Part shown: in pieces, positions 4,808-61,300 of the stretch
How the letters are laid out: each line of letters begins with the position of its first letter
Numbering within the stretch: the stretch's first letter is position 1
NCBI RefSeq assembly: GCF_003427025.1
Contig: NZ_QVAI01000010.1
Span: forward strand, 62,001-126,000
Source of the DNA: Jiangella endophytica
Lineage (GTDB): Bacteria; Actinomycetota; Actinomycetes; Jiangellales; Jiangellaceae
Length of the DNA stretch: 64,000 nucleotides
Direction: 5' to 3'
Made by a program: the position numbers and the translations under genes
Notes under the pieces: generated by a model
The model's database searches: none
What the model saw: only the letters and a program-made list of their open reading frames with translations
What the model was told of the DNA's origin: nothing

Positions 4808-5390
4808 CGTCGCGGGTCTCGTGCTCGCCGCCGGGTCGGGCTCCCGGTACGGCGGGCCGAAGGCGCTGGTCCGGTACGAGGGGTCGCGGCTGGTCGACCG
4901 CGCGGTGCGGCTGCTGTCCGGCGGCGGCTGCGCCCCGGTCGTCGTGGTGTCCGGCGCGGTGTCGCTGAGCGTGCCGGGCGCGATCGTCGTGCACAACCCG
5001 GACTGGGCGACGGGCATGGGGTCGTCGCTGCGGGCCGGCCTGCGTGCGCTGAGCTGGTCGGTGACGGCCGATGCCGTGGTGGTGGCGCTGGTGGACCAGC
5101 CGTGGGTCGGCGTCGAGGCCGTGAAGAGGCTGCGTCAGGTCTGGTCGTCCGCGGCCGGGGAGGTCTCCGTCGCCGTCGCGACCTACGAGGGCCGCCGCGG
5201 CAACCCCGTCCTGCTGGCTCGTCCGGTCTGGCCGGAGGTCGCCGCTCTCGCCGACGGCGACGTCGGCGCCCGCCCCTTCCTGCGGGCGCACCCCGAGCTC
5301 GTCACGGCCGTCGACTGCACCGGCACCGGCACCTCCGCCGACGTCGACACCCCCGCCGACCTCCCCCCTTTGAATGATCACGTTCAGTAG
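4797..5390 (+). CDS. MobA-like nucleotidyltransferase (MocA/CoxI type)
   Basis: Nucleotidyltransferase of the MobA-like group (197 residues), probably adding CMP or GMP to molybdopterin for the hydroxylase served by this operon. Visible: VLAAGSGSRYGGPKALVRYEG (nucleotide-binding loop with the conserved K), NPDWATGMGSSLRAGL, VVVALVDQPWVG (metal-site D), RGNPVLLARPVWPEV and DVDTPADL. The last codons (N-D-H-V-Q-stop) come from the outer arm of the palindromic repeat at 5372-5550, so the C-terminal tail is repeat-encoded. Which nucleotide it uses cannot be told from sequence. Confidence 0.87.
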   Translation: MPSDVAGLVLAAGSGSRYGGPKALVRYEGSRLVDRAVRLLSGGGCAPVVVVSGAVSLSVPGAIVVHNPDWATGMGSSLRAGLRALSWSVTADAVVVALVDQPWVGVEAVKRLRQVWSSAAGEVSVAVATYEGRRGNPVLLARPVWPEVAALADGDVGARPFLRAHPELVTAVDCTGTGTSADVDTPADLPPLNDHVQ

Positions 5391-5550
5391 GGCCGTGACC
5401 GCTTCGGCAGGCATGCATGCCTGGTGAGGCGTGAACTCGCCTATGCCGAGCCCGGTAAGCGGTTGCCGGCCACTCCACCAGGCGTCCTACCGGATCACCA
5501 GGAATGCGTGCCTCGCAGAGCGTGAGCACCCCTGCTGAACGTGATCATTC
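5372..5550. repeat. Palindromic intergenic repeat, copy A (two-hairpin form)
   Basis: Perfect 16-bp inverted arms, GAATGATCACGTTCAG at 5372-5387 and its complement at 5535-5550, enclose two core elements: CAGGCATGCATGCCTG (5408-5423) and a diverged copy, CCAGGAATGCGTGCCTCG (5498-5515). The repeat lies between the convergent MobA-like and AllG genes. The AllG stop codon (5545-5547) is inside the right arm, and the MobA-like gene ends just after the left arm. Likely role: bidirectional transcription termination, or a non-autonomous mobile palindrome; neither is shown. It shares arms and core with copies at 37335 and 58190. Confidence 0.8.
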
Positions 5551-6954
5551 CAAGGCGGGTGGGGGAGCGGTGGCGGCCAGGGCGGAGAGGGCCGACGTGA
5601 AGCACTCCATGGGCGGCTGGACGAGGCCGGCGCCGACCTGGCCGGTGCCGGCGATCCGGCCGGCGATGCCGGTGTTGATCTGCGGCAGCACCCCGGTGCG
5701 GGTCACCAGCGTGACGTCGATGCCGGTCGGCGCGCCGCGGAACTCCAGGATCGGGATGGCGTACGCCGGGTTCTCGCCGACGGTGATCTCGTACATGAGG
5801 CGGCTGGTCGCCAGCGCGTCCGGCACCGAGCCGCCGACGAACCGGACGATCGCCGGGGCGGCCGCCATCGCGAACCCGCCGAGCCCCATGGTCTCGGTGA
5901 TCGCGGAGTCGCCGATGTCGGGGTTGGCGTCGTCGGGGCCGTACGCACCCAGGTAGAGCCCGGCCGGCGTGTTGGCGGGCGCGGTGAACCACTGCCGCCC
6001 GGTCCCGGACACCTGGATCCCGAAGTCGGTGCCGTTGCGGGCCATCGTGGTGACGACGGAGCAGCCGGGCAGGTCCGCGGCGGCGGCCGTCTGCAGCTTG
6101 CCGGCCGGCATGACCAGGTTCAGGAAGAAGTGGTCGTTGCCGCCGACGAACTCCGCCACGGCCGCCACCTGCGCCGACGGCGCGCCGCTGTCGACCAGCG
6201 AGGGCAGCAGGTCGCGCAGGAGCATGAGCGTGCCGGCCCGGTTGCGGTTGTGGCCCTCGTCGCCCATCTGGACCATCTGCGCGACGATCCCCTTGACGTC
6301 CACCCGCCCGCGCCGGCGGACGGCGGCCTGCAGCAGCGGCCCGAGCACGGACGACATCCAGCGCAGCCGGTCGATGACGGGCGGGCCGTAGGCGCCGTAG
6401 CGCAGCACCGTCCCGAGGCCCTCGTTCAGCGAGCACCACGCGGTGCGTCCGCCGGCGTCGTCGACCAGCTCGAACAGCCACATCGACGGCGACACGACGC
6501 CGGCCATCGGCCCGACGCCGCCGCGGTCGTGACACGGCGCCCATTCGACGCCGTCGCCCGAGGCCAGCAGCGCCTCGGCCGCGGACGGCGTCGCCGCCAG
6601 GCCCTCGAACAGCGCCGCCCCGATCAGCGCGCCGCGCAGCGGCCCGGACGCCCGCTCCCACGTGATCGGCGGCCCGGCGTGCAGGAACTGTCCTGGCTGC
6701 AGTCCGAGCACCTCACCGGCCGGCCGGACGTCGACCAGGTCGGCGCCCGCGGCCAGCATCGCGGCCAGCGCCTGCTCGTTCGCCGCCGGTCGTCGCGGGT
6801 CGGCCAGCACCCGGGCGAGATCGTCCTCCGTCCCGGCCACCGGCGGCCGCCAGTCGACCGTCGTCACCGGCACCGCCTGCGCGGCCAGTGCGGCCGCGAA
6901 CAGGTCGACGCCGGCACTGACGACGCGCGGCTCGTCGCGCAGCAGGTCGCTCAC
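5545..6954 (-). CDS. allG: AllG-like (YlbE, DUF1116) subunit of oxamate carbamoyltransferase
   Basis: DUF1116 protein of 469 residues, homologous to E. coli YlbE/AllG. AllF, AllG and AllH have been linked to the oxamate carbamoyltransferase step of allantoin breakdown. Visible family segments: WERASGPLRGALIGAALFEG, PCHDRGGVGPMAGVVSPSMW, CSLNEGLGTVLRYGAYGP, GDEGHNRNRAGTLMLLRDL and NGTDFGIQVSGTGRQWFTAPA. The GTG at 6954 overlaps the stop of the upstream fdrA-like gene (GTGA), fixing the start and implying coupling. Family assignment is firm; the reaction is transferred from E. coli. Confidence 0.85.
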   Translation of the reverse strand: MSDLLRDEPRVVSAGVDLFAAALAAQAVPVTTVDWRPPVAGTEDDLARVLADPRRPAANEQALAAMLAAGADLVDVRPAGEVLGLQPGQFLHAGPPITWERASGPLRGALIGAALFEGLAATPSAAEALLASGDGVEWAPCHDRGGVGPMAGVVSPSMWLFELVDDAGGRTAWCSLNEGLGTVLRYGAYGPPVIDRLRWMSSVLGPLLQAAVRRRGRVDVKGIVAQMVQMGDEGHNRNRAGTLMLLRDLLPSLVDSGAPSAQVAAVAEFVGGNDHFFLNLVMPAGKLQTAAAADLPGCSVVTTMARNGTDFGIQVSGTGRQWFTAPANTPAGLYLGAYGPDDANPDIGDSAITETMGLGGFAMAAAPAIVRFVGGSVPDALATSRLMYEITVGENPAYAIPILEFRGAPTGIDVTLVTRTGVLPQINTGIAGRIAGTGQVGAGLVQPPMECFTSALSALAATAPPPALE

Positions 6955-22260: not shown

Positions 22261-22332
22261 GTTGATCTTGGAGTTGTTCGGCAATCGTGGGGTGAAATGT
22301 CCGATAGATGGCCGAACAACTCCAAGATCAAC
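22261..22332. repeat. 22-bp perfect inverted repeat between pyrD and pyrF
   Basis: The arms at 22261-22282 and 22311-22332 are exact complements beginning GTTGATCTTGGAGTTG. The 28-nt loop contains no T-tract. It lies 14 bp after the pyrD stop and ends just before the pyrF ribosome site (GGAGGGG). It could attenuate or process the pyr transcript, or be a dispersed palindrome: shorter GTTGATCTTGG copies lie at 34929 and 35008. Confidence 0.8.
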
Positions 22333-28550: not shown

Positions 28551-30572
28551 GTGAGCGCATCCGAGCCGGCCGAGCCCGACCAGCTGGCCCTGGTCGCCGC
28601 GCCCGGCAAGCGCCGGTTCCGCACCCGCGAGCCTGAGCCGGTCGCTGACGAGCACCCCGTGGCCGCCGTGCTGGTCGACGTCGGCCTGCCGCACCTCGAC
28701 CGGCCGTTCGACTACCTCGTGCCCGCCTCCATGGCCGACGACGCCGTCGTGGGCGCTCGCGTGTCGGTGCGGTTCGCCGGCACCGACCACGACGGCTTCG
28801 TCGTCGCTCGCAAGGACTCCAGCGACCACGGCGGCAAGCTCGCGCGGCTGCGCCGGGTGGTGTCGCCGGAGCCGGTGCTGGCGCCTGAGATCGCCGCGCT
28901 GGCCCGCGCCGTCGCCGACCGCTACGCCGGCACCGTCTCCGACGTCCTGCGGCTGGCCGTCCCGCCCCGGCACGCCACCGCCGAGAAGGCCGCGTCGCCC
29001 GAGCCGCCGGCCCTGCCGGAGCGGCCCGATCCCGGCGGGTGGGCACAGCACACCGACGGCGTCGCGCTCCTCGACGCGCTGGCCGCCGGAGGCACTCCGC
29101 GTGCCGTCTGGAACCCCGGCCCGGCCGCCGACTGGCCCGGCCTCCTGGCCCGACTGGTCGCCACGGCACTGTCCGGCCAGCGGGGCGCGCTGGTGGTGGT
29201 GCCCGACGGCCGCGACGTCGCGCTGGTGTCGTCGGCGCTGACCCAGCTGCTGGGGGAGGGCCGGCACGTCGAGCTGGAAGCCGACGCCGGGCCGTCCGCG
29301 CGCTACAAGCGCTGGCTGGCGGTGCGCCGCGGCGCCGTGAAGGCCGTCGTCGGAACCCGGTCGGCGGCGTTCGCGCCGGTGCACGACCTCGGGCTGGTCG
29401 TCGTCTGGGACGACGGCGACGACCTGCACGCCGAGCCGCGGGCGCCGTACCCGCACGCGCGCGAGGTGCTGCTGCTGCGCGCCCACCAGTCCGGTGCGGC
29501 CGCCGTCGTGGGCGGGTTCGCCCGAACCGCCGAAGCCGAGCAGCTGCTCGTCACCGGCTGGGCCCGGCCGGTGACGCCGTCGCGGCAGACCGTGCGGGCC
29601 GCGTCGCCGCGGGTGCACACCAGCGGCGACGACCACGAGCAGGCCCGCGACGAAGCCGCCCGCACCGCCCGGCTGCCGTCGCTGGCCTGGCGCACGGCGC
29701 GGGCCGGGCTCGGCCGCGGGCCGGTGCTGGTGCAGGTGCCGCGGGCCGGCTACCTGCCGGGCGTCGCCTGCGCCAGGTGCCGCACTCCGGCGCGCTGTGC
29801 GGCCTGCTCCGGGCCGCTGGTGCTCGGTCAGGCCGATCGGCCGCCGAGGTGCGCCTGGTGCGCCACGGAGCACCCGTCGTGGCGGTGCGCGGAGTGCGGG
29901 CACGGAGCGTTGCGCGCGACCGTCGTCGGGGTGCGGCGGACGGCTGAGGAGCTGGGCCGGGCGTTTCCGGGCGTCCCGGTGCTGCTGTCCCGCGGCGACG
30001 CCGTCCGCTCCACGGTGGGCGCCGAGCCGGCGCTGGTGGTGGCGACGCCCGGCGCCGAGCCGGTCGCCGACGACGGCTACACCGCGGCACTGCTGCTCGA
30101 CGGCACGGCGCTGCTGGCCCGGACCGGGCTGCGCGCCGCCGAGGAGGCGCTGCGGCGCTGGCTGCGGGCGGCCGCCCTGGTCCGTCCCGGCCCCATGGGC
30201 GGCGAGATCGTCGTCGTGGCCGACTCCGGCGCCCCGGCCGTCCAGGCGCTGGTCCGCTGGGACCCGGCCGGCTTCGCGGGTCGCGAACTGGCCGAGCGGA
30301 CGTCCCTGCACCTGCCGCCCGCCGCCCGCGTCGCCGAGCTCACCGGCGCCCCCGCCGACGTCGACGACCTCCTCATGCACCTCGAGCTGCCGACCGGCGC
30401 CGAAGTCATCGGCCCCGTCCCGGTCGACGACGCCGCGCGGGCGATGATCCGCGCGCCCCGAGCCGCGGGGACGGCGCTCGCGGCGGCGCTGCGGTCGGCG
30501 GCCGGCATCCGCTCGGCGCGGCGTACCGGGGGGTCGGTGCGCGTGCGCATCGATCCGGTCGACTTCGGCTGA
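28551..30572 (+). CDS. priA: PriA-like primosomal protein, helicase motifs degenerate
   Basis: Primosomal protein N' (673 residues), needed for replication restart. The N-terminal 3'-DNA-binding domain (VLVDVGLPHLDRPFDYLVPASM) and zinc-binding cysteines (VACARCRTPARCAACSGPL, RCAWCATEHPSWRCAECGHG) are kept. The Walker A lysine loop is absent, and the DEEH box reads VVWDDGDDLHAEPRAPYPHARE. The loss of helicase residues is known for actinobacterial PriA proteins, so it probably acts as a loading scaffold rather than a motor. The GTG at 28551 follows a TAGAAA box by six bases. Confidence 0.88.
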   Translation: MSASEPAEPDQLALVAAPGKRRFRTREPEPVADEHPVAAVLVDVGLPHLDRPFDYLVPASMADDAVVGARVSVRFAGTDHDGFVVARKDSSDHGGKLARLRRVVSPEPVLAPEIAALARAVADRYAGTVSDVLRLAVPPRHATAEKAASPEPPALPERPDPGGWAQHTDGVALLDALAAGGTPRAVWNPGPAADWPGLLARLVATALSGQRGALVVVPDGRDVALVSSALTQLLGEGRHVELEADAGPSARYKRWLAVRRGAVKAVVGTRSAAFAPVHDLGLVVVWDDGDDLHAEPRAPYPHAREVLLLRAHQSGAAAVVGGFARTAEAEQLLVTGWARPVTPSRQTVRAASPRVHTSGDDHEQARDEAARTARLPSLAWRTARAGLGRGPVLVQVPRAGYLPGVACARCRTPARCAACSGPLVLGQADRPPRCAWCATEHPSWRCAECGHGALRATVVGVRRTAEELGRAFPGVPVLLSRGDAVRSTVGAEPALVVATPGAEPVADDGYTAALLLDGTALLARTGLRAAEEALRRWLRAAALVRPGPMGGEIVVVADSGAPAVQALVRWDPAGFAGRELAERTSLHLPPAARVAELTGAPADVDDLLMHLELPTGAEVIGPVPVDDAARAMIRAPRAAGTALAAALRSAAGIRSARRTGGSVRVRIDPVDFG

Positions 30573-31086
30573 GTTCGCCCAGCTCGCCGTCCCGCTCGCC
30601 GTCTCGTTCGCCAGGAGGTGGGGTTCGCCGGGGGAGTGGCGACAGTGGGTCGTCCCCCTGCTGCCGATTGTCTTGGCCGCGGGGGCGCGCCTCGAGTCCG
30701 CGGCCTCTGCTGGGTGCGCTTGGTGCCTGGTTGGGGGCCTTGGACTTGACCCGCGCCCCCACGGCCCAAGAACGGGCAGCTATCAGGGGGACGGGGGAGT
30801 GCGGGCACGCTCGCTCGGGTGCACCGTCGCCTGGGCTGGCGGCGGTTCGCCGTCGTGTGCCGTTGGCCGCGGTACGGCGTTTGGTCTCGCAGCCGCCGCC
30901 GCGGGTGGCGGCCGTGATCTGGGGCTATGCCCAGGACTGTGTTCGCTCTGCGAGGCATGCATGCCTCGAAGAGGGGGAGAACGCCTGGTGATGTGGACGG
31001 GATCGTCGATGATCATCGCTGGTTGCGCGGCCGAGGGAATGGGCAGGAGGGGACGGCGAACTGTCACCCAACGGCGAGCGGCACAG
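30573..31086. other. 514-bp intergenic region without a supported gene
   Basis: Lies between priA and the convergent ABC ATPase gene. Open frames here are G/P/R-rich shadows with no family resemblance. It begins with short near-repeats of CTCGCCGTCCCG and contains the palindromic core described at 30941-30982, plus a separate 12-bp palindrome CGATGATCATCG at 31007-31018. Confidence 0.6.
30941..30982. repeat. Palindromic repeat, partial copy D (core only)
   Basis: The 18-bp perfect palindrome CGAGGCATGCATGCCTCG (30951-30968) is flanked by GTTC..CTCT and AGAG..GAAC, so the hairpin extends outward with bulges. The 14-mer CGCTCTGCGAGGCA (30944-30957) recurs in complement at 5509-5522 inside copy A, tying the two together. 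The TGATCACGT outer arms are missing. Confidence 0.7.
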
Positions 31087-31761
31087 TCAACGCGACACCA
31101 GATCGACGTAGAACTCGACAGCCTCCTGAGGCCGGCCGTCGAACACCAGGCGGCCGTCGTCGAACACCAGGACGCGGTCCATGGCCAGGACGGCGTCGAG
31201 GTCGTGAGTGACCAGCACGACCCGTTGCGGCAGCTCGGCCAGCAGTGTCAGCACCTTGCGGGTGTTGCGCAGGTCCAGCAGCGTCGTCGGCTCGTCGCAG
31301 ACGAGGACCTTCGGCTCCGTCGCCAGCACCGAGCAGATCGCCAGCAGCTGCTTCTGCCCGCCGGACAGCAGATGCGCCGGGTGATCGGCGTGCCCGGCCA
31401 GCCCGAACGACGCGAGGGCCTCGGCGACCCGCGCGGGGACCTCGGACCGCGGCAGGTCGCGCAGCCCGAACGCGACGTCCTCGGCGACCGTCGGCATGAG
31501 GATCTGCGCGTCCGGGTCGGTGAACACGAACCCCACCGACCGCCGCACCTCCGCGCCGGATCGCCGCGTCGACAGGCCGTCGACCGTCACCGACCCCGAC
31601 GACGGCAGCACCAGCCCGTTGAGCAGCCGCGCGAACGTCGACTTGCCCGATCCGTTGGCCCCGATGACGCCGACCCGCTGCTCGGTCAGCGTCACCGTGA
31701 CGTCGCGCAGAACCGTCCGCTCGCCGTACCGATGCGTGACGGCGTCGACCTCGATCACCAC
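31087..31761 (-). CDS. ECF-type (CbiO/BioM-like) ABC transporter ATPase
   Basis: ATP-binding subunit (224 residues) of an energy-coupling-factor importer for a vitamin or metal. Visible: Walker A GANGSGKSTFARLLNGL, Q-loop region GFVFTDPDAQILMPTVAEDVAFGL (the DPDxQ motif typical of CbiO/EcfA), signature LLSGGQKQLLAICSVLA, Walker B VLVCDEPTTLLDLRNT. No transmembrane T component or substrate-binding S component is adjacent, so its partners must be elsewhere. It starts 4 bp after the metallopeptidase gene ends, so the two are probably co-transcribed. Confidence 0.85.
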   Translation of the reverse strand: MVIEVDAVTHRYGERTVLRDVTVTLTEQRVGVIGANGSGKSTFARLLNGLVLPSSGSVTVDGLSTRRSGAEVRRSVGFVFTDPDAQILMPTVAEDVAFGLRDLPRSEVPARVAEALASFGLAGHADHPAHLLSGGQKQLLAICSVLATEPKVLVCDEPTTLLDLRNTRKVLTLLAELPQRVVLVTHDLDAVLAMDRVLVFDDGRLVFDGRPQEAVEFYVDLVSR

Positions 31762-35380: not shown

Positions 35381-37273
35381 GTGTCGATGGGGATGGGTCA
35401 GGCGTGGCGCGCCTCCAGGTCGTTCTCCGGCGACCAGTCGGTCACCCACAAGCGGCTGGCCCGGGGCACCGTGAAGCGCATCGCGGGGTACGGCCGGCCC
35501 TACCGCCTCCAGCTGGCGGTGTTCCTCGCCACCACGGTCGCCGCCGCGGCGTCCGCGGCGGCCGTGCCGCTGCTGCTGAAGGTGCTCATCGACAGCGGCG
35601 TCAGCGCCGGCAACCGGTCGGTCGTCGTCTGGGCCGCCCTCGCGGTGGCCGCACTGGCCGTGGTCGACGTCATCCTGGGCCTGGTCGGCCGGTGGATGTC
35701 GGCGCGGGTCGGCGAAGGGCTGATCTTCGACCTGCGTCGCCAGGTCTTCGACCATGTGCAGCGCCAGCCGGTCGCGTTCTTCACCCGCACGCAGACCGGC
35801 TCGCTCGTGTCGCGGCTCAACAGCGACGTCATCGGCGCCCAGCAGGCGTTCACCGGCACGCTGTCGCAGGTGGTCAGCAACGCCGTGACCCTGGTGCTGG
35901 CGCTCGGCGCGATGATCGTGCTGTCGTGGCAGATCACCCTGATCGTGCTGGTCCTGGTGCCGCTGTTCCTGCTGCCGGCCCGGTTCATCGGCCGCAAGCT
36001 GGCCGACATCAGCCGCGAGTCCATGCAGCTCAACGCCGCGATGAGCCAGACCATGACGGAGCGGTTCAACGTCTCCGGCGCGCTGCTGGTGAAGATCTTC
36101 GGCCGCTACCAGAACGAGAACGCCGACTTCGGGCAGGCCGCGGGCCGGGTCCGCGACATCGGCGTCGTGCAGGCGCTGTACGCGCGCTACTTCTTCCTCG
36201 GTCTCACCTTCCTCGCCTCGCTCGCCACGGCGGTCGTCTACGGCGTCGGCGGCTGGCTGGCCATCGGCGGCACCCTCGAGGTGGGCACGCTGGTGGCGCT
36301 GGCCGCGTTGCTGACCCGCCTCTACGGGCCGCTGACCGCCCTGTCGAACGTCCAGGTCGACATCATGACGGCGCTGGTCAGCTTCGAGCGGGTCTTCGAA
36401 GTGCTGGACCTGTCGCCGATGGTGCGCGACGCGCCCGGCGCCCGGCCGCTGCCCGGTGGCGACGAGCAGCTGTCCGTCCAGCTCGAAGACGTCCATTTCA
36501 CCTACCCGGGCAACGAGGTCTCGCTGGCCTCGCTGGAAGCGGTGGCCCGGCCGGTCACGGCGTCACCGGAGCCGGTGCTGAAGGGCGTCTCGTTCGACGT
36601 CGCGCCGGGGGAGCTGGTCGCGCTGGTCGGCCCGTCCGGCGCCGGCAAGTCGACCATCACGCACCTGGTGGCGCGGCTCTACGACCCGACCTCGGGCGTG
36701 GTGCGCGTCGGCGGTCACGACGTGCGCGACGTCACACTGGAGTCGCTGCACGAGGCCGTGGGCATCGTCACGCAGGACGCGCACATGTTCCACGACACCA
36801 TCCGCTACAACCTCGCCTACGCGCGTCCCGGCGCCACCGACGACGAGCTGTGGGCGGCCCTCGAGGCGGCGCAGATCGCCGGGCTGGTCCGGTCGCTGTC
36901 CGAGGGCCTCGACACCGTCGTCGGCGACCGCGGTTACCGGCTCTCCGGCGGCGAGAAGCAGCGCCTGGCCATCGCCAGGCTGCTGCTCAAGGCGCCCCGC
37001 GTGGTCGTGCTCGACGAGGCGACGGCCCACCTGGACTCCGAGTCCGAGGTGGCCGTCCAGCGGGCGCTCGAGACCGCGCTCGCCGGGCGGACGTCACTGG
37101 TCATCGCGCACCGCCTGTCGACCATCCGCGGCGCCGACCAGATCCTCGTCGTCGACGACGGCCGCATCGTCGAGCGCGGCACCCACGAGCAGTTGCTGGC
37201 CGCCGACGGCGCCTACGCCGAGCTGTACCGCACCCAGTTCGCCCTGCAGGACGTCTCGGCCCGCACGGCCTGA
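35381..37273 (+). CDS. ABC exporter, fused permease-ATPase
   Basis: Half-size multidrug/lipid-type ABC exporter (630 residues). The membrane domain (about 35-330) has six segments, starting LQLAVFLATTVAAAASAAAVPLLLKVLIDSG and including FFTRTQTGSLVSRLNSDV. The ATPase domain has VGPSGAGKSTITHLVARLYDPTSG, LSGGEKQRLAIARLLLKAP, VVLDEATAHLDSESE and the switch histidine in SLVIAHRLSTI. The GTG at 35381 follows a GAGGAGG site. It works as a dimer; the substrate is unknown. Confidence 0.92.
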   Translation: MSMGMGQAWRASRSFSGDQSVTHKRLARGTVKRIAGYGRPYRLQLAVFLATTVAAAASAAAVPLLLKVLIDSGVSAGNRSVVVWAALAVAALAVVDVILGLVGRWMSARVGEGLIFDLRRQVFDHVQRQPVAFFTRTQTGSLVSRLNSDVIGAQQAFTGTLSQVVSNAVTLVLALGAMIVLSWQITLIVLVLVPLFLLPARFIGRKLADISRESMQLNAAMSQTMTERFNVSGALLVKIFGRYQNENADFGQAAGRVRDIGVVQALYARYFFLGLTFLASLATAVVYGVGGWLAIGGTLEVGTLVALAALLTRLYGPLTALSNVQVDIMTALVSFERVFEVLDLSPMVRDAPGARPLPGGDEQLSVQLEDVHFTYPGNEVSLASLEAVARPVTASPEPVLKGVSFDVAPGELVALVGPSGAGKSTITHLVARLYDPTSGVVRVGGHDVRDVTLESLHEAVGIVTQDAHMFHDTIRYNLAYARPGATDDELWAALEAAQIAGLVRSLSEGLDTVVGDRGYRLSGGEKQRLAIARLLLKAPRVVVLDEATAHLDSESEVAVQRALETALAGRTSLVIAHRLSTIRGADQILVVDDGRIVERGTHEQLLAADGAYAELYRTQFALQDVSARTA

Positions 37274-37334: not shown

Positions 37335-37426
37335 GGAGTTGATCACGTGAAGTAGGGGTGCTCCCGCTTCCACAGGCATGCATTCCTGGGGAAGCGGGAG
37401 CACCCCTACTTCACGTGATCAACTCC
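37335..37426. repeat. Palindromic intergenic repeat, copy B (37-bp perfect arms)
   Basis: The arms at 37335-37371 and 37390-37426 are exact 37-bp complements, containing GTTGATCACGTGAAGTAGGG and GTGCTCCCGCTTCC. The 18-nt loop contains CAGGCATGCATTCCTG. The transcript of either strand would form a very stable hairpin. It lies between the convergent ABC exporter and SDR genes, 61 bp and 14 bp from their stops. Arms and core match copies A and C. Confidence 0.88.
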
Positions 37427-37440
37427 GCCGAGCGGAGGCG

Positions 37441-38199
37441 TCAGAGGGAGCGGATCGAGCCGCCGTCGACGGCGATCATCGAGCCGGTGAGGTAGGACGC
37501 GGCGGGGGAGAGGACGAACGCGGCCACCCGGCCGAACTCCTCGGGCCGGCCGTACCGCCGCAGCGGGATGGTCCGCGACGCCGCCTCCTTGACCTCCTCG
37601 GGGTCGCGGCCGGACATCGCGGCCAGTTCGCGCAGGCGGTCGGTCTCGATGCTGCCGGGCAGCAGGCCGACCGTTCGGACGCCGTCGGGCCCCAGCTCGT
37701 CGGAGAGCTGCTTGATCACCATGGCGAGGCCCGGCCGCAGCCCGTTCGACGCGGCCAGCCCGGCGATGGGCGCCTTCACCGAGCTGGACAGCACGAACGC
37801 CAGTGCGCCGCCGCCGGACAGCCGTGCGGCGACGACGCGGGCCACCCGGACGGCGCCGAGGAAGACGCTGTCGAAGGCGGCGCGCCACTGGTCGTCGGTG
37901 AGATCGGTGACCTTGCCGGCGGGCGGCCCGCCGACGCTGACGAGGGCGCCGTCGAGCCGTCCGAAGCGGTCCAGCGCGGTGTCGGCCAGCCGCTCCGGCG
38001 TGCCCGGGTCGGCGTTGTCGGCCGCGACGCCGACGACGGAGTCGCCCAGCTCGCGGACGGCGGCGTCGACCGCCTCCTGCGAGCGCGACGTGAGCACGAG
38101 CCGGGCGCCGTCGGCGACCAGGGCCTCCGCCCCCGCCCGGCCGAGCCCGCGGGTGCCGCCGGTGACGATGTAGACGCGATCCTTCAGGCCGAGATCCAT
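37441..38199 (-). CDS. SDR-family oxidoreductase
   Basis: Short-chain dehydrogenase/reductase (252 residues). Cofactor loop VTGGTRGLGRAGAEAL (TGxxxGxG), SVGGPPAG in place of the usual NNAG, and a C-terminal VLSPAASYLTGSMIAVDGGSIRSL. The active-site region reads FVLSSSVKAPIAGLAASNGLRPGLAM, so the usual Y-x3-K appears changed to a non-tyrosine position, as in some atypical SDRs. The substrate is unknown. It is followed on the same strand, with opposite order, by the GH15 gene upstream. Confidence 0.82.
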   Translation of the reverse strand: MDLGLKDRVYIVTGGTRGLGRAGAEALVADGARLVLTSRSQEAVDAAVRELGDSVVGVAADNADPGTPERLADTALDRFGRLDGALVSVGGPPAGKVTDLTDDQWRAAFDSVFLGAVRVARVVAARLSGGGALAFVLSSSVKAPIAGLAASNGLRPGLAMVIKQLSDELGPDGVRTVGLLPGSIETDRLRELAAMSGRDPEEVKEAASRTIPLRRYGRPEEFGRVAAFVLSPAASYLTGSMIAVDGGSIRSL

Positions 38200-56995: not shown

Positions 56996-58191
56996 CGGGA
57001 CTGGTCGCGGCATTCGCCGAGGCGTGGGACGAGGTCCGCATCCACAAGGTCCGCGTCATCGTGTCGCTGATCGGCGTCCTGATCGCCGTCGCCGCGATGA
57101 CGGTGATCACCGCACTGGGCGACATGGCCCGGCAGGCCAACGCCGAGCACTCCGAGCGCACCAGCGGCCGCCCGGCGACGCTGCAGGTCAGCGCGTGGAG
57201 CATGGACGGCTCGTTGGTCGCCTCGGACACGCTGACCGGCGCCTACGCCGAGATCGTCGAGCGGCACTCCGTCACGTACTCGTCGGTGCTCAGCACGAAC
57301 GAGCAGTTGTTCCGGTTCACCGACGGCGTCGAGCCGGTGTGGACGACCTACATCGACCGGTCCTACGGCGAGATGCACCGCATCGAGCCGCGGGAGGGCC
57401 GTTGGTTCACCGCCGCCGACGAGCGCCGGTTCGCGCCGGCGGTCGTCGTCAACGAGGCCTTCCACCAGCGGATGGGCGCGCCGGACCTGCGTACGAACCC
57501 GACGGTGGTGATCGGCGGCGAACGGCCGGTCCGCGCGACGGTCATCGGCGTCACGCCGGACGCGTACAGCGACGAGTCGCCGTCGGCGTTCCTGCTCAAC
57601 TCCCACCAGGCGCAGTGGGGGATCCAGGGCGCCTATCCCGGCGCGCCGATCCTGGAGCTGTGGGTGCCGCCGGAGGCCGCCGACGAGCTCACCGGCGTCG
57701 TCACGTCCGACCTCGCCAGCCTGGTCGGCGTCGACCTGCAGGTCGACGTCTACCGCATCGACCCGTCCGACTTCGACGTCATCGACGGCCAACTGCAGTG
57801 GGTGATCCGCGGCGTCAGCGTCATCGCGCTGGGCATGGGTGCGCTGGGTCTGGTGAACATCGCTCTGGTGACGGTGCGGTACCGGGTCCGCGAGATCGGC
57901 GTGCGGCGCAGCTTCGGCGCGACGTCGGGCCGGGTGTTCTTCTCGGTGATGATGGAGAGCGTGTTCGCGACGGCGGTCGCCGGGCTGGCCGGCGTGGTGC
58001 TGGCCGTCGCGATCGTGAAGAACGTGCCGATCGAGGAGCTGATCGGCGGCAGCGTCACCGACGTGCCGGCGTTCCCGGTCCGGGCCGCCGTCGAGGGTCT
58101 GGTCGCGGCGACGGCGATCGGCGCCCTGGCCGGGATCGTCCCGGCCACCGTCGCCGTCCGCGTCAAGGTGATCGACGCGATCCGCTTCTGA
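56992..58191 (+). CDS. MacB-like FtsX-domain ABC permease
   Basis: Permease (399 residues) with the MacB layout. An N-terminal membrane segment (VRVIVSLIGVLIAVAAMTVITAL) is followed by a large external domain (about 50-280), which includes ATVIGVTPDAY and FLLNSHQAQWG. Three C-terminal membrane segments (VSVIALGMGALGLVNIALVTV, ESVFATAVAGLAGVVLAVAIV, AAVEGLVAATAIGALAGIVPA) end with VREIGVRRSFGAT between the first two, as in FtsX proteins. The TGA stop overlaps the first bases of repeat copy C. Confidence 0.9.
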   Translation: MTGLVAAFAEAWDEVRIHKVRVIVSLIGVLIAVAAMTVITALGDMARQANAEHSERTSGRPATLQVSAWSMDGSLVASDTLTGAYAEIVERHSVTYSSVLSTNEQLFRFTDGVEPVWTTYIDRSYGEMHRIEPREGRWFTAADERRFAPAVVVNEAFHQRMGAPDLRTNPTVVIGGERPVRATVIGVTPDAYSDESPSAFLLNSHQAQWGIQGAYPGAPILELWVPPEAADELTGVVTSDLASLVGVDLQVDVYRIDPSDFDVIDGQLQWVIRGVSVIALGMGALGLVNIALVTVRYRVREIGVRRSFGATSGRVFFSVMMESVFATAVAGLAGVVLAVAIVKNVPIEELIGGSVTDVPAFPVRAAVEGLVAATAIGALAGIVPATVAVRVKVIDAIRF

Positions 58192-58347
58192 ATGATCACG
58201 TTCAGTTGGCGTGTTCACGCTCACCCAGGCATGCATGCCTGGTGAAGCGAGTACACGCCGGCCCGACGCCGAACACAGGACTCCTCCCGCTTACCCAGGC
58301 ATGCATTCCTGGGTGAGCGGGAGTAACCCCACTGAACGTGATCATTC
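58190..58347. repeat. Palindromic intergenic repeat, copy C (two-hairpin form)
   Basis: Outer 16-bp perfect arms GAATGATCACGTTCAG (58190-58205) and complement (58332-58347) are identical to those of copy A. Inside are the 18-bp palindrome CCAGGCATGCATGCCTGG (58225-58242) and a 16-bp stem with one G-U pair (CTCCCGCTTACCCAGG at 58284-58299, partner at 58308-58323) around CATGCATT. It fills the gap between the convergent permease and subtilase genes; the permease stop lies at its left edge. Confidence 0.88.
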
Positions 58348-58362: not shown

Positions 58363-61300
58363 TCAGTCGACGGCGACCACCGTCGTGCTGGTGGTGGCGG
58401 CGTAGCCGACCAGCCCGAGGTACGGCACGCCCGCGCCGAGGCCGCTCCACGAGACCGTCACCTCGGCGGGGTCGCCGGCTCGGGCGGGCAGCGGATCGGG
58501 CGCGACCGTCGCGTTGCCGGCCGAGTCGGCCCCGACGGCGAAGTCGCGCAGGCTGAAGTCGACCGCCGACCCGTCCGGGCTGGAGAACAGGTGCACCAGT
58601 ACCTGGTACGTCCCCGGTTCGGGCGCGGTCAGGTCGACCCGCTCGCTGGCCGCGCCGGTCGCGCCGTTCACCGGCAGCTCGGCGCCGTCGGGGCCGTAGA
58701 CGTAGAGGTCGTAGTCGGCCGATTCCTGACCCGCGACCAGGTCGAACCGGGCCAGTGACGTCCCCTCGGGCACCTCGAACGACACCAGCCGCGACGACGT
58801 GTTGCCGGCGGGGTCCGGTGCCTCGCCCGGCGTCAGCGCACCGTCGGTGACCTCGCCCGGCGCCAGGCCGCGCAGCGTGAGGTCGACGTCGCCGGTCGTC
58901 GACGTCGTCACCGAGTACGTTGCCGAGCCGTCCGCGGCCGTCGCTGCCACCTCGGAAGGCGCGGCGACGGCGACCGGGCGGGCCACGATCGGGCTGCGCA
59001 CCGTGGTTCCCGCGCCGCTCCAGGTCAGCGTGCCGTGCGCGTACTCGTCCAGGGCCGCACGCGTCCGGGTGAGCGTCACCTCGAACGTCTTGCTCTGCCC
59101 GGGCCGGCCGAAGTACAGCACCGACGGGGTGACCCGCGCGGTGAAGCCGGGCACCGAGATCGACGCGCGGTACAGCCCCGGCGTGACGGCGGTGACGGTG
59201 CGGGTGACGGTCTGCCGCCCGGCCAGCGCGCCGACGGCGATGGAGGGCTGGTTGAGGTCGGACGGGTCGATCGGCTCGACGCCCGGGACGCCGGTGTCCT
59301 CGCCGGTGCCTTCGAGGAACGCCAGCCAGTCGGCGGTGCCGGACTCGTACACCAGACCGGGGTCGAGGAACCGGGCCGGGTCGACGTGCCCGGCGCCGGC
59401 GTGGAAGCGGTCGCGGTCCGGCTCGCCCGACGCGACGAGCAGGTCGTAGGCGGTCGTCATCATCGCCGACCTGATCGCCGCCGCCGACCACTCGGGGTGC
59501 TCGGCGCGGACCAGCGCGGCCAGCCCGGCGATGTGCGGCGCCGCCATCGACGTGCCGGAGAGGAAGTCGAAGTCGTTGCCGTCGTGCGGCCCGGGCGCGA
59601 CGGCCGCGAGCACGTCGACGCCCGGCGCCGAGATGTCCGGCTTGAGCAGGTCACCGCCGTTGGCCAGCGCGGGGCCGCGGGACGAGAACCCGGCCAGCAC
59701 CGGCTTCGGCGTCGGCGGCAGTTCCGTCTGGTCGCCGGGCAGCAGCGCCGCGGTGGCGCCGTCGCCCGCCGCGTACTCCCGGATCGCCTCGGCGTCCTCG
59801 GCCCCGACGTGCGTCGCCGGGAGGACGTGGAAGTCGGCGTTCAGCGTCTCGGCCGGGTCCAGGTTACCCAGCACGACGCCGACGCCGCCCGCCCGCCGCA
59901 CCTCGGCCGACTTCGCGACGCGGTCGTAGACGCCGCGGTCGCAGATGACGACGGCACCCGCGGCGGCCGCGTCGTCCAGCGACGACGGCCCGCACAGCGC
60001 CGCCTCGCCCGGTTCGACGCCGGACGCCGCGATGTCGCGGGCGTACACCAGCGGGGTCTGTTCCGGGACGCCCGCGTCGTTGATCATCGACCCGCGGAAG
60101 AGCCTGCCGTCGCCCAGTTCGACGGTGCCCTCGTAGATCTGGTGCGTGCTGGCCGCGACCGTCGTGACCCACGGGCTGTTGTGCGCGACGGTCGACTCGC
60201 CCGGCCCGGAGTTGCCGGCCGACGCCGACACGAAGATGTTCGCCGACGCCGCCGAGAGGAAGGCCAGCTCCACCGGGTCGACCAGCGTGTCGGTGGCGCC
60301 GGAGATCGAGTAGTTGATGACGTCGACGCCGTCGAGGATCGCCTGGTCGACGGCGGCCACGGAGTCCGACGGATAGCAGCCGCCGGTGTTCTCGTCGTCG
60401 TCCTGCCAGCACACCTTGTACGCCGCGACCGACGCGCCCGGCGCCATGCCCGACCCGTCGCCGAACGCGCGGCCGTTCACCGTCATCGGCACGCCGTGGT
60501 TCCCGGCCGCCGTGCTGGCGGTGTGGCTGCCGTGGCCGTCGCCGTCGCGCGTGGACAGGTGCTCGTTCGGGTCGCGATGCTCCGGCGGCACGTTGGCGAC
60601 GAAGCCGTCGTCGAAGTAGCGGGCCGAGACGAGCTTGCCGTTGCACAGGTCGGCGGTCCAGTTCTCGCCGGTCTCGCACTCGCCGGTGAACGTGTCGCCG
60701 TTCGCCTTCAGTACCGCCGTGCCGGTGTCCGACGTCCGGTAGGCGGCGCCCGGCTCGCCGGTGGGGCCGTCGGCCAGGTCGGGGCCGGCGAACGACGCGC
60801 TCTCCGGCCAGATGCCGGTGTCGATGACGCCGACGACGACGCCGCGCCCGGCCTCGGCCGTCCCGCCCAGCGCGGCCCACACGCCGTCGTCGCCGGTCAG
60901 GCCGAGGAACTCGGGCGACGCGACGGTGTCGACGGCGCGCGGCACGTCCGGCACGACGGCGAGCACCTGCGGGTCGGCGGACAGCTCGGCCGCCTGCTCC
61001 GCGGTGAGCTCGGCGGCGAACCCGTTCACCGCGACGGTGTACTGGTACCGCGGCTCGGCGCCGACCTCGCCGGCCACCTCGCGCTGCCGCTGGTCGAGGT
61101 GCGTGCGGTAGTCGCGGACGGCGTGATCGCCGGCCCGCAACCGCTCACCGTCGCCCGGAGCCGTCGCGTCGAGGCCGCGCACCCCGCCCTCGTAGGTGGC
61201 CGCGGGCGCCCCCGTCAGGACGACGACGTAGGAGCCGTCGGCGAAGTCGCGCGGCGCGGGCGCCGCCGGTGCGGACGGAGTGGCGCCGGCGACGACGGTC

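Follow-up and report, generated by a model that had tools for sequence, protein, structure and literature searches.

A dispersed palindromic repeat family at convergent gene ends in Jiangella

We describe here a family of palindromic repeats known in Jiangella and in at least one other genus of the Jiangellaceae. The spread of this family is well supported by its copy number, its placement, its stop-codon register, empty orthologous sites, apparent loss scars and stems that are species-specific while the arms are conserved. We favour, with a probability of about 0.55, the reading that these are dispersed palindromic repeats that spread by copying and are tolerated or kept at convergent gene ends for the two-way stop, and the termination or stabilisation of transcripts, that they would provide. 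The analysis started from a 64,000-nt stretch of the 7.85-Mb, 89-contig genome of Jiangella endophytica (hereafter the window; G000:C2:62001-126000, G000 being this genome), which contains the following features:

5372..5550, no strand assigned: copy A, a two-hairpin armed element of 173 nt from TGATCA to TGATCA, between a MobA-like gene and AllG
5372..5387, + strand: left arm GAATGATCACGTTCAG of copy A, in sense behind the MobA-like frame and encoding NDHVQ
5388..5390, + strand: stop codon TAG of the MobA-like gene, within copy A
5410..5421, no strand assigned: first core of copy A, GGCATGCATGCC
5454..5467, no strand assigned: middle motif of copy A, GGTAAGCGGTTGCC, at the dyad
5501..5512, no strand assigned: second core of copy A, degenerate, GGAATGCGTGCC
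5535..5550, - strand: right arm of copy A, whose minus-strand TGA (5545-5547) is the AllG stop codon
30941..30982, no strand assigned: class II (core-only) copy belonging to a larger modular non-coding repeat; the convergent gap around it (30572-31087) is 514 nt long
37335..37426, no strand assigned: copy C, a fused one-hairpin armed element of 82 nt from TGATCA to TGATCA
58190..58347, no strand assigned: copy B, a two-hairpin armed element of 152 nt in the gap between a MacB/FtsX-type permease gene and a subtilase gene

The cores and the middle motif of copy A were read directly, as were its 16-nt arms (5372-5387 and 5535-5550), which are perfect, as the sequence-only reading of this DNA had stated; its wording of two GGCATGCATGCC-type cores was slightly generous, the first being exact and the second degenerate. 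Copy A does supply the ends of both neighbouring genes: the AllG stop codon lies inside the right arm, and the MobA-like frame enters the left arm, takes its last residues from it (NDHVQ) and then meets the TAG. The arms and cores recur, as had been proposed, in copy B (perfect arms at 58190-58205 and 58332-58347, two cores), where the permease stop TGA (58189-58191) overlaps the arm and the subtilase gene has its 3' end at 58363. Copy C, between an ABC transporter gene (ending at 37273) and a short-chain dehydrogenase gene (ending at 37441), is indeed one long hairpin, with 46-bp arms that are 96% complementary, but its outer arm is the variant GGAGTTGATCACGTGAAG and not the same arm, and the lone core described at 30941-30982 is present with different outer ends, which places it in class II. 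All four window copies (4/4) lie in convergent gaps, and the RNA folds of the three armed ones, A, B and C, have z values of -9.8, -9.8 and -15.8, with 0/200 shuffles as stable in each case.

The middle motif is of a GG-AA-CG-TT-CC type, which we take to resemble a LacI-family operator; it lies near the dyad of several two-hairpin elements, and a similar motif precedes a gene near G000 C1:131.8 kb. A separate palindrome family, GTTGATCTTGGAGTTGTTCGGC...GCCGAACAACTCCAAGATCAAC, is represented in the window at 22261-22332, ~15 nt past a stop in a tandem gap; the G000 tiles have seven more such hairpins in convergent gaps, and at one orthologous site G002, another Jiangella genome, has a related hairpin in the place of a class I element. 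Longer mosaic non-coding repeats of the AATGGGCAGCAGGGGGACG type accompany class II cores at 30980-31090 of the window and at G000 C1:130489-131927.

The family extends well past these few copies: with up to 2 mismatches, the arm GAATGATCACGTTCAG has 83 matches in the 7.85-Mb genome and its backwards control 0. The core GGCATGCATKCCT, with up to 1 mismatch, has 310 matches (control 10), many of them counted twice because the core is palindromic, and exact arm-plus-core half-elements number 59 genome-wide. The anatomy, read from core-centred copies in 1.63 Mb of G000, is that of a half-element of ~75-80 nt, consisting of the outer arm (A)ATGATCACGTTNANNA, a hairpin and the end CCTGGTGATG; class I halves typically start (G/A)AATGATCACGTTNAG, followed by a hairpin around GGCATGCATGCC. 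Two halves set tail to tail between convergent genes form the two-hairpin palindrome of 151-173 nt or longer, and the fused form is one long hairpin of 82 nt. The 31 two-armed G000 copies, a set that requires exact TGATCACGT arms and misses decayed copies, measure from TGATCA to TGATCA 82 nt (n=14), 151-152 nt (n=6), 172-173 nt (n=7) or 204-225 nt (n=4), none but the 82-nt form being shorter than 151 nt. By eye, the one-hairpin and the 151-152-nt copies are without the middle motif, and GTAG is present just inside the arm in some copies only. Class II copies have the core hairpin in common with class I, have other ends and lie within larger mosaic non-coding repeats; mixed class I/class II copies also occur. 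Two elements (G000 C56:286441-286664 and C56:313162-313365) contain tandem ~20-nt half-hairpin repeats (CACCAGGTGTCCGTTCGCTT), which suggests slippage or unequal exchange within them.

A search for the arm pattern ATGATCACGTTNANNA in 118 genomes, twelve of them Jiangella (G000-G011), gave very uneven counts: 277 matches in G006, 46 in G002, 42 in G000, 36 in G011, 34 in G001, 24 in G007, 11 in G005, 9 in G003, 1 in G008 and 0 in G004, G009 and G010. G018, a genome of another genus that matches Haloactinopolyspora alba, has 25 and every other genome 0-2, with a backwards control of 0 throughout, and 0 viral contigs carry arm plus core. In a midpoint-rooted tree of three loci G000 falls among G004, G008, G009 and G010, which have 0-1 arm matches, a nesting that requires repeated loss or regain. 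The other species follow the same plan with other stems; 8/9 arm pairs in the G006 tiles have the equivalent of the fused length with a different stem sequence, and the G018 tiles hold single halves only.

Placement was scored with gene calls from a home-made dicodon gene finder in an 861-kb set of G000, made up of C1:1-400000 and C1:600001-985357 (785 kb) and of the window with a 12-kb extension, the window having come with the finding itself; forty other G000 tiles, picked for arm or core matches, were excluded from the enrichment test, and the register counts use all tiles. The set contains 744 gene pairs (133 convergent, 477 tandem and 134 divergent), and its 19 gaps with an armed element divide into 14 convergent, 5 tandem and 0 divergent (Fisher P 1e-7), so that placement is not random with respect to gene orientation. 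Convergent gaps make up only 15.5% of element-free intergenic bases (binomial P 2e-8), and core-only gaps follow the same direction (5 convergent, 1 tandem; P 9e-4). Two of the five tandem gaps are 1.25-1.44-kb stretches without a called gene and may be gene-calling errors. Over all G000 tiles, many of them chosen for copies, armed gaps number 34 convergent, 16 tandem and 1 divergent; divergent placement is therefore rare, not absent.

The arms are also oriented with respect to the genes. Of 101 arms in all G000 tiles, 7 are in genes and 94 intergenic; 83 of the 94 lie sense-downstream of a gene, with the stop no more than 30 nt away in 66 cases, and in 11/94 the arm TGA is the stop codon itself, so that the supply of gene ends, which had been noted for copy A, is not special to it. 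Tiles of other species were chosen for arm matches, save 60 kb of G010 taken as the orthologous region. Those of G018 contain 9 arms, one in a gene, and the intergenic ones are all sense-downstream (8/8; 4 convergent, 4 tandem), and for 6 the stop is at most 18 nt away. In G006 placement is less strict: 8 of 20 arms are in convergent gaps, 13 follow the 3' end of a gene, most at a greater distance from its stop, and tandem gaps hold 5/9 arm pairs; in the G001 tiles only 3/5 arms are sense-downstream.

Orthologous sites show where the element comes and goes. At 10/14 element sites it is missing in at least one other species, and at 5/14 (A, B, C, 4 and 7) another species is armed, mostly with other stems, the elements of G007 at sites C and 7 being of the same type as those of G000. 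Site A is occupied in G001, G002, G003 and G011, and in G006 an arm stands at the contig edge; the arm is kept across species, with 4 nt missing from the left arm of G011, while the stems differ, and the two-hairpin elements of G000, G001, G002 and G011 keep the GG-AA-CG-TT-CC-type middle motif. The stops at this site overlap in G010, where no element is present; G005 carries an unrelated ATGATCATCAATGATCC hairpin instead, the ~170 bp of G007 do not contain the arm, and in G004, G008 and G009 the sequence is unrelated. By eye, the MobA-like frame ends at the arm TGA in G001, G002, G003 and G011 and at an upstream TAG in G007 and G010. Site B has an element in G002, is empty in G005, G007 and G009, and in G003 and G006 has an armed half that adjoins the right-hand gene, the left flank having no match. 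Site C holds a two-hairpin element in G001 and a half in G007, and none in G003, G005, G008 and G010.

For eleven further sites the two flanks were joined and searched for in four species; ten of these sites were read, no locus having been read for the sixth, and the 30 retained loci do not cover every species at every site. At sites 2, 3, 4, 5, 7, 8 and 9 the flanks lie no more than 26 nt apart, without the element, in at least one species. The element is present in G002 at sites 4 and 7 and in G007 at site 7, unrelated hairpins take its place at sites 1, 9 and 11, and G007 has apparent deletion scars (GGAAT at site 4, TGATCGTTCAG at site 10). The site A hairpins of six species, the unrelated one of G005 included, differ in their stems, yet both strands fold strongly, at z from -7 to -19 against 60 shuffles each. 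Of the two origins proposed for copy A, insertion at gene ends or co-evolution with them, the second may hold at site A, where the arm is at the same place in 6/12 species. At the AllG end, Haloactinopolyspora alba and G005 have a third hairpin type, with foot ATGATCATCAAYGATC, and Phytoactinopolyspora halophila has one with foot TGATGATCATGAAC; a TGATC foot is common to several unrelated hairpin types in these genomes, including those in convergent gaps of G000.

What the hairpins do is a separate question, for which two-way termination is the most likely answer, as judged from the letters of the DNA. Copies A, B and C form long hairpins that can fold on both strands and are G+C-rich, as intrinsic terminators are; no U-tract follows the hairpin in these three copies, where direct reading of the right arm after TGAT gives CATTCCAAGG, CATTCCGGGG or CAACTCCGCC. 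Once the 64 element-bearing gaps and those beyond set length limits had been left out, strong hairpins were found in 19/114 convergent gaps, against 12/490 tandem and 3/245 divergent ones (15/735 together), a concentration of non-family hairpins that terminators would be expected to show. In the 60 kb of G010, 7/9 convergent gaps are no longer than 19 nt and have no substitute hairpin; such nearly gapless pairs mean that the element is not needed there, which, like the missing U-tract, counts against termination. TGATCA, a six-base palindrome with TGA on both strands, would be well suited as the foot of a gene end that works in both directions. A specific association of GATC feet with convergent hairpins was unsupported (8/19 vs 5/15, P 0.73).

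Within G000, the two arms of two-hairpin copies covary, 11/17 being identical over the 4 nt after TGATCACG (expected 4.5; P 0.0009), and those of one-hairpin copies do so weakly (6/14; expected 2.7; P 0.03). In the inner stems of two-armed G000 copies, own halves pair no better than shuffled ones, so that the stems are conserved within the genome mainly as a consensus and not through covariation. We also considered far flank complementarity beyond the arm, where own flanks beat shuffled ones for ~4-6 nt only.

Since the element is present or absent at orthologous sites and arm counts run from 0 to 277 per species, the family spreads or is replaced in place, and is not a fixed gene part. The proposal of a dispersed palindrome that settles between convergent genes accordingly gains from copy number, convergent enrichment, empty orthologous sites and bursts in particular species. 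Under the reading that we favour, copies would be made by some trans-acting enzyme or by gene conversion between copies (we found no mobilising enzyme), and would be tolerated or kept where convergent genes end, since TGATCA puts a stop codon on either strand and the transcribed hairpin would stop or stabilise both converging mRNAs. A stronger version, which we put forward only tentatively, makes the repeat a mobile 3'-end module of the Jiangellaceae: an oriented hairpin would be set in register behind stops by a non-RAYT route, its TGATCA foot giving stop and termination signal to both genes, with stems rewritten in each species and the arm fixed as recognition site. It is also possible, if rather improbable, that the copies are selfish MITE-like hairpins that insert widely and have no termination function, the convergent, stop-adjacent pattern being that of survivors which break neither promoters nor genes. 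Bursts in some species beside near-total absence in others, empty sites without a substitute hairpin and the missing U-tract all fit such elements, as do the 0/134 divergent gaps with armed copies in the 861 kb, which purifying selection would give; yet the single halves of G018 are all in sense behind a stop even in tandem gaps (4/8), a register of -3 and +12 nt is not easily given by selection alone, and at site A arms and middle motif are kept in several species while the stems change.

Immobile descent is the more doubtful course. Were the repeats ancestral bidirectional terminators that evolve in place, are homogenised per genome by concerted evolution and are kept or deleted, the site A arm in G000, G001, G002, G003, G006 and G011, across the deepest split of the midpoint-rooted tree, and the apparent deletion scars of G007 at sites 4 and 10 would follow readily. 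This is nevertheless unlikely, given that site C is empty in G003 and filled in G000, G001 and, by a half, G007, that 277 arm matches in G006 and 25 in G018 stand against 0 in G004, G009 and G010, and that the position of G000 among species with 0-1 arm matches would call for several independent near-total losses. We regard as very improbable a role at the level of DNA rather than RNA, as a protein-binding or cruciform site centred, for example, on the operator-like dyad motif or the TGATCACG arms: the quantised lengths of 82 (14), 151-152 (6) and 172-173 nt (7) among 31 two-armed copies and the middle-motif type in the site A elements of four species agree with it, but placement tracks the direction of transcription, which a DNA-only site does not require, and the motif is wanting, by eye, from one-hairpin and 151-152-nt copies.

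If the favoured reading is correct, new gene ends arise from a selfish or semi-selfish repeat, which resets stop codons and C-termini. It would also bring two-way termination signals into a genus in which most convergent stops, in the armless species examined, nearly touch or overlap. The many matched empty and filled sites make the effect of a spreading palindrome on transcript ends directly testable, and a genus with 0 and 277 arm matches per species offers a route to the missing mobilising factor.

How does this family compare with known systems? That it could not be matched to a named class was a fair statement, as Rfam, a search for RAYT genes and the literature gave no name. At gathering score Rfam has 0 matches in the window. 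A cutoff of E up to 1 over 5300-5620 yields MIR839 alone; its 30.5 bits fall far below the gathering score of 200, and we read it as a coincidental match of a long hairpin. MITEs and composite repeats such as ERIC, Correia/NEMIS, BOX and MIRU are short, non-coding, intergenic and modular, with inverted ends and presence or absence at orthologous sites, and MIRU repeats touch stop codons. The Jiangella family shares with MITEs its terminal inverted repeats (perfect over 16 nt in copies A and B, with both arms present in 31 copies from the tiles). What sets it apart from all of these is a unit in the form of an oriented half-element placed at the 3' ends of genes, with no target-site duplication seen and no autonomous partner recognised among the three arm pairs opened. 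No duplicated flank was seen at the cleanest empty/filled pairs (site B and site 3), few pairs aligning cleanly enough to judge, and TGATCA was rejected as such a duplication because the clean empty sites (B, 3) are without it. Arm pairs 1.2-1.3 kb apart were opened in G000 C34, G003 C1 and G007 C93; they enclose AbiEi/DUF559-like or glycosyltransferase-like genes (named by eye) and no recognised transposase. The idea of a 1.2-kb autonomous element in G003 thereby found no backing, the arms flanking, by reading, a glycosyltransferase-like gene between MurJ-like and CTP-synthase-like genes. In L128 (G000:C34:34859-36065) and L262 (G007:C93:3950-5154) armed halves flank an AbiEi/DUF559-type-looking gene, seemingly with the same upstream gene; possibly this gene is cargo inside an element. 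Class II copies were also considered as tails of one mobile gene family, an idea dropped because their neighbour genes are diverse by eye. Bidirectional intrinsic terminators are strong hairpins in convergent gaps that fold on both strands; unlike them, the Jiangella family has a shared primary sequence, copy bursts, no U-tract and lengths of up to 225 nt.

Judged from titles and listings, the literature search found no paper on this palindrome family, and the passages of the J. gansuensis genome paper on repeats, palindromes, CRISPR and terminators do not mention such a repeat (PMC5292007). The nearest relatives in behaviour are the GTAG- and CGTC-tagged REP/BIME repeats, which are dispersed palindromes located mostly between convergent or unidirectional genes and downstream of coding regions, with units often paired in opposite orientation and GTAG termini that often give the flanking ORFs their stop codon (PMC3733652). 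The Jiangella family resembles them in two respects: (i) it is dispersed and gene-downstream, in convergent and unidirectional gaps; and (ii) it pairs its halves oppositely and supplies stop codons. It departs from them in three: (iii) in place of a 20-40 bp GTAG/CGTC-tagged unit it has one that starts ATGATCACG, with a half of ~77 nt and a paired length of 82-225 nt; (iv) the arm TGATCACG replaces the tag and the stop is TGA, not TAG; and (v) RAYT (Y1_Tnp, PF01797) was found in 0/23 genomes, a set with all 12 Jiangella and without G018, the control being found in 5/14 known genomes, and a RAYT-driven REP was rejected for this reason. Although the family thus fails the tag and RAYT tests, it behaves like the REP/BIME repeats.
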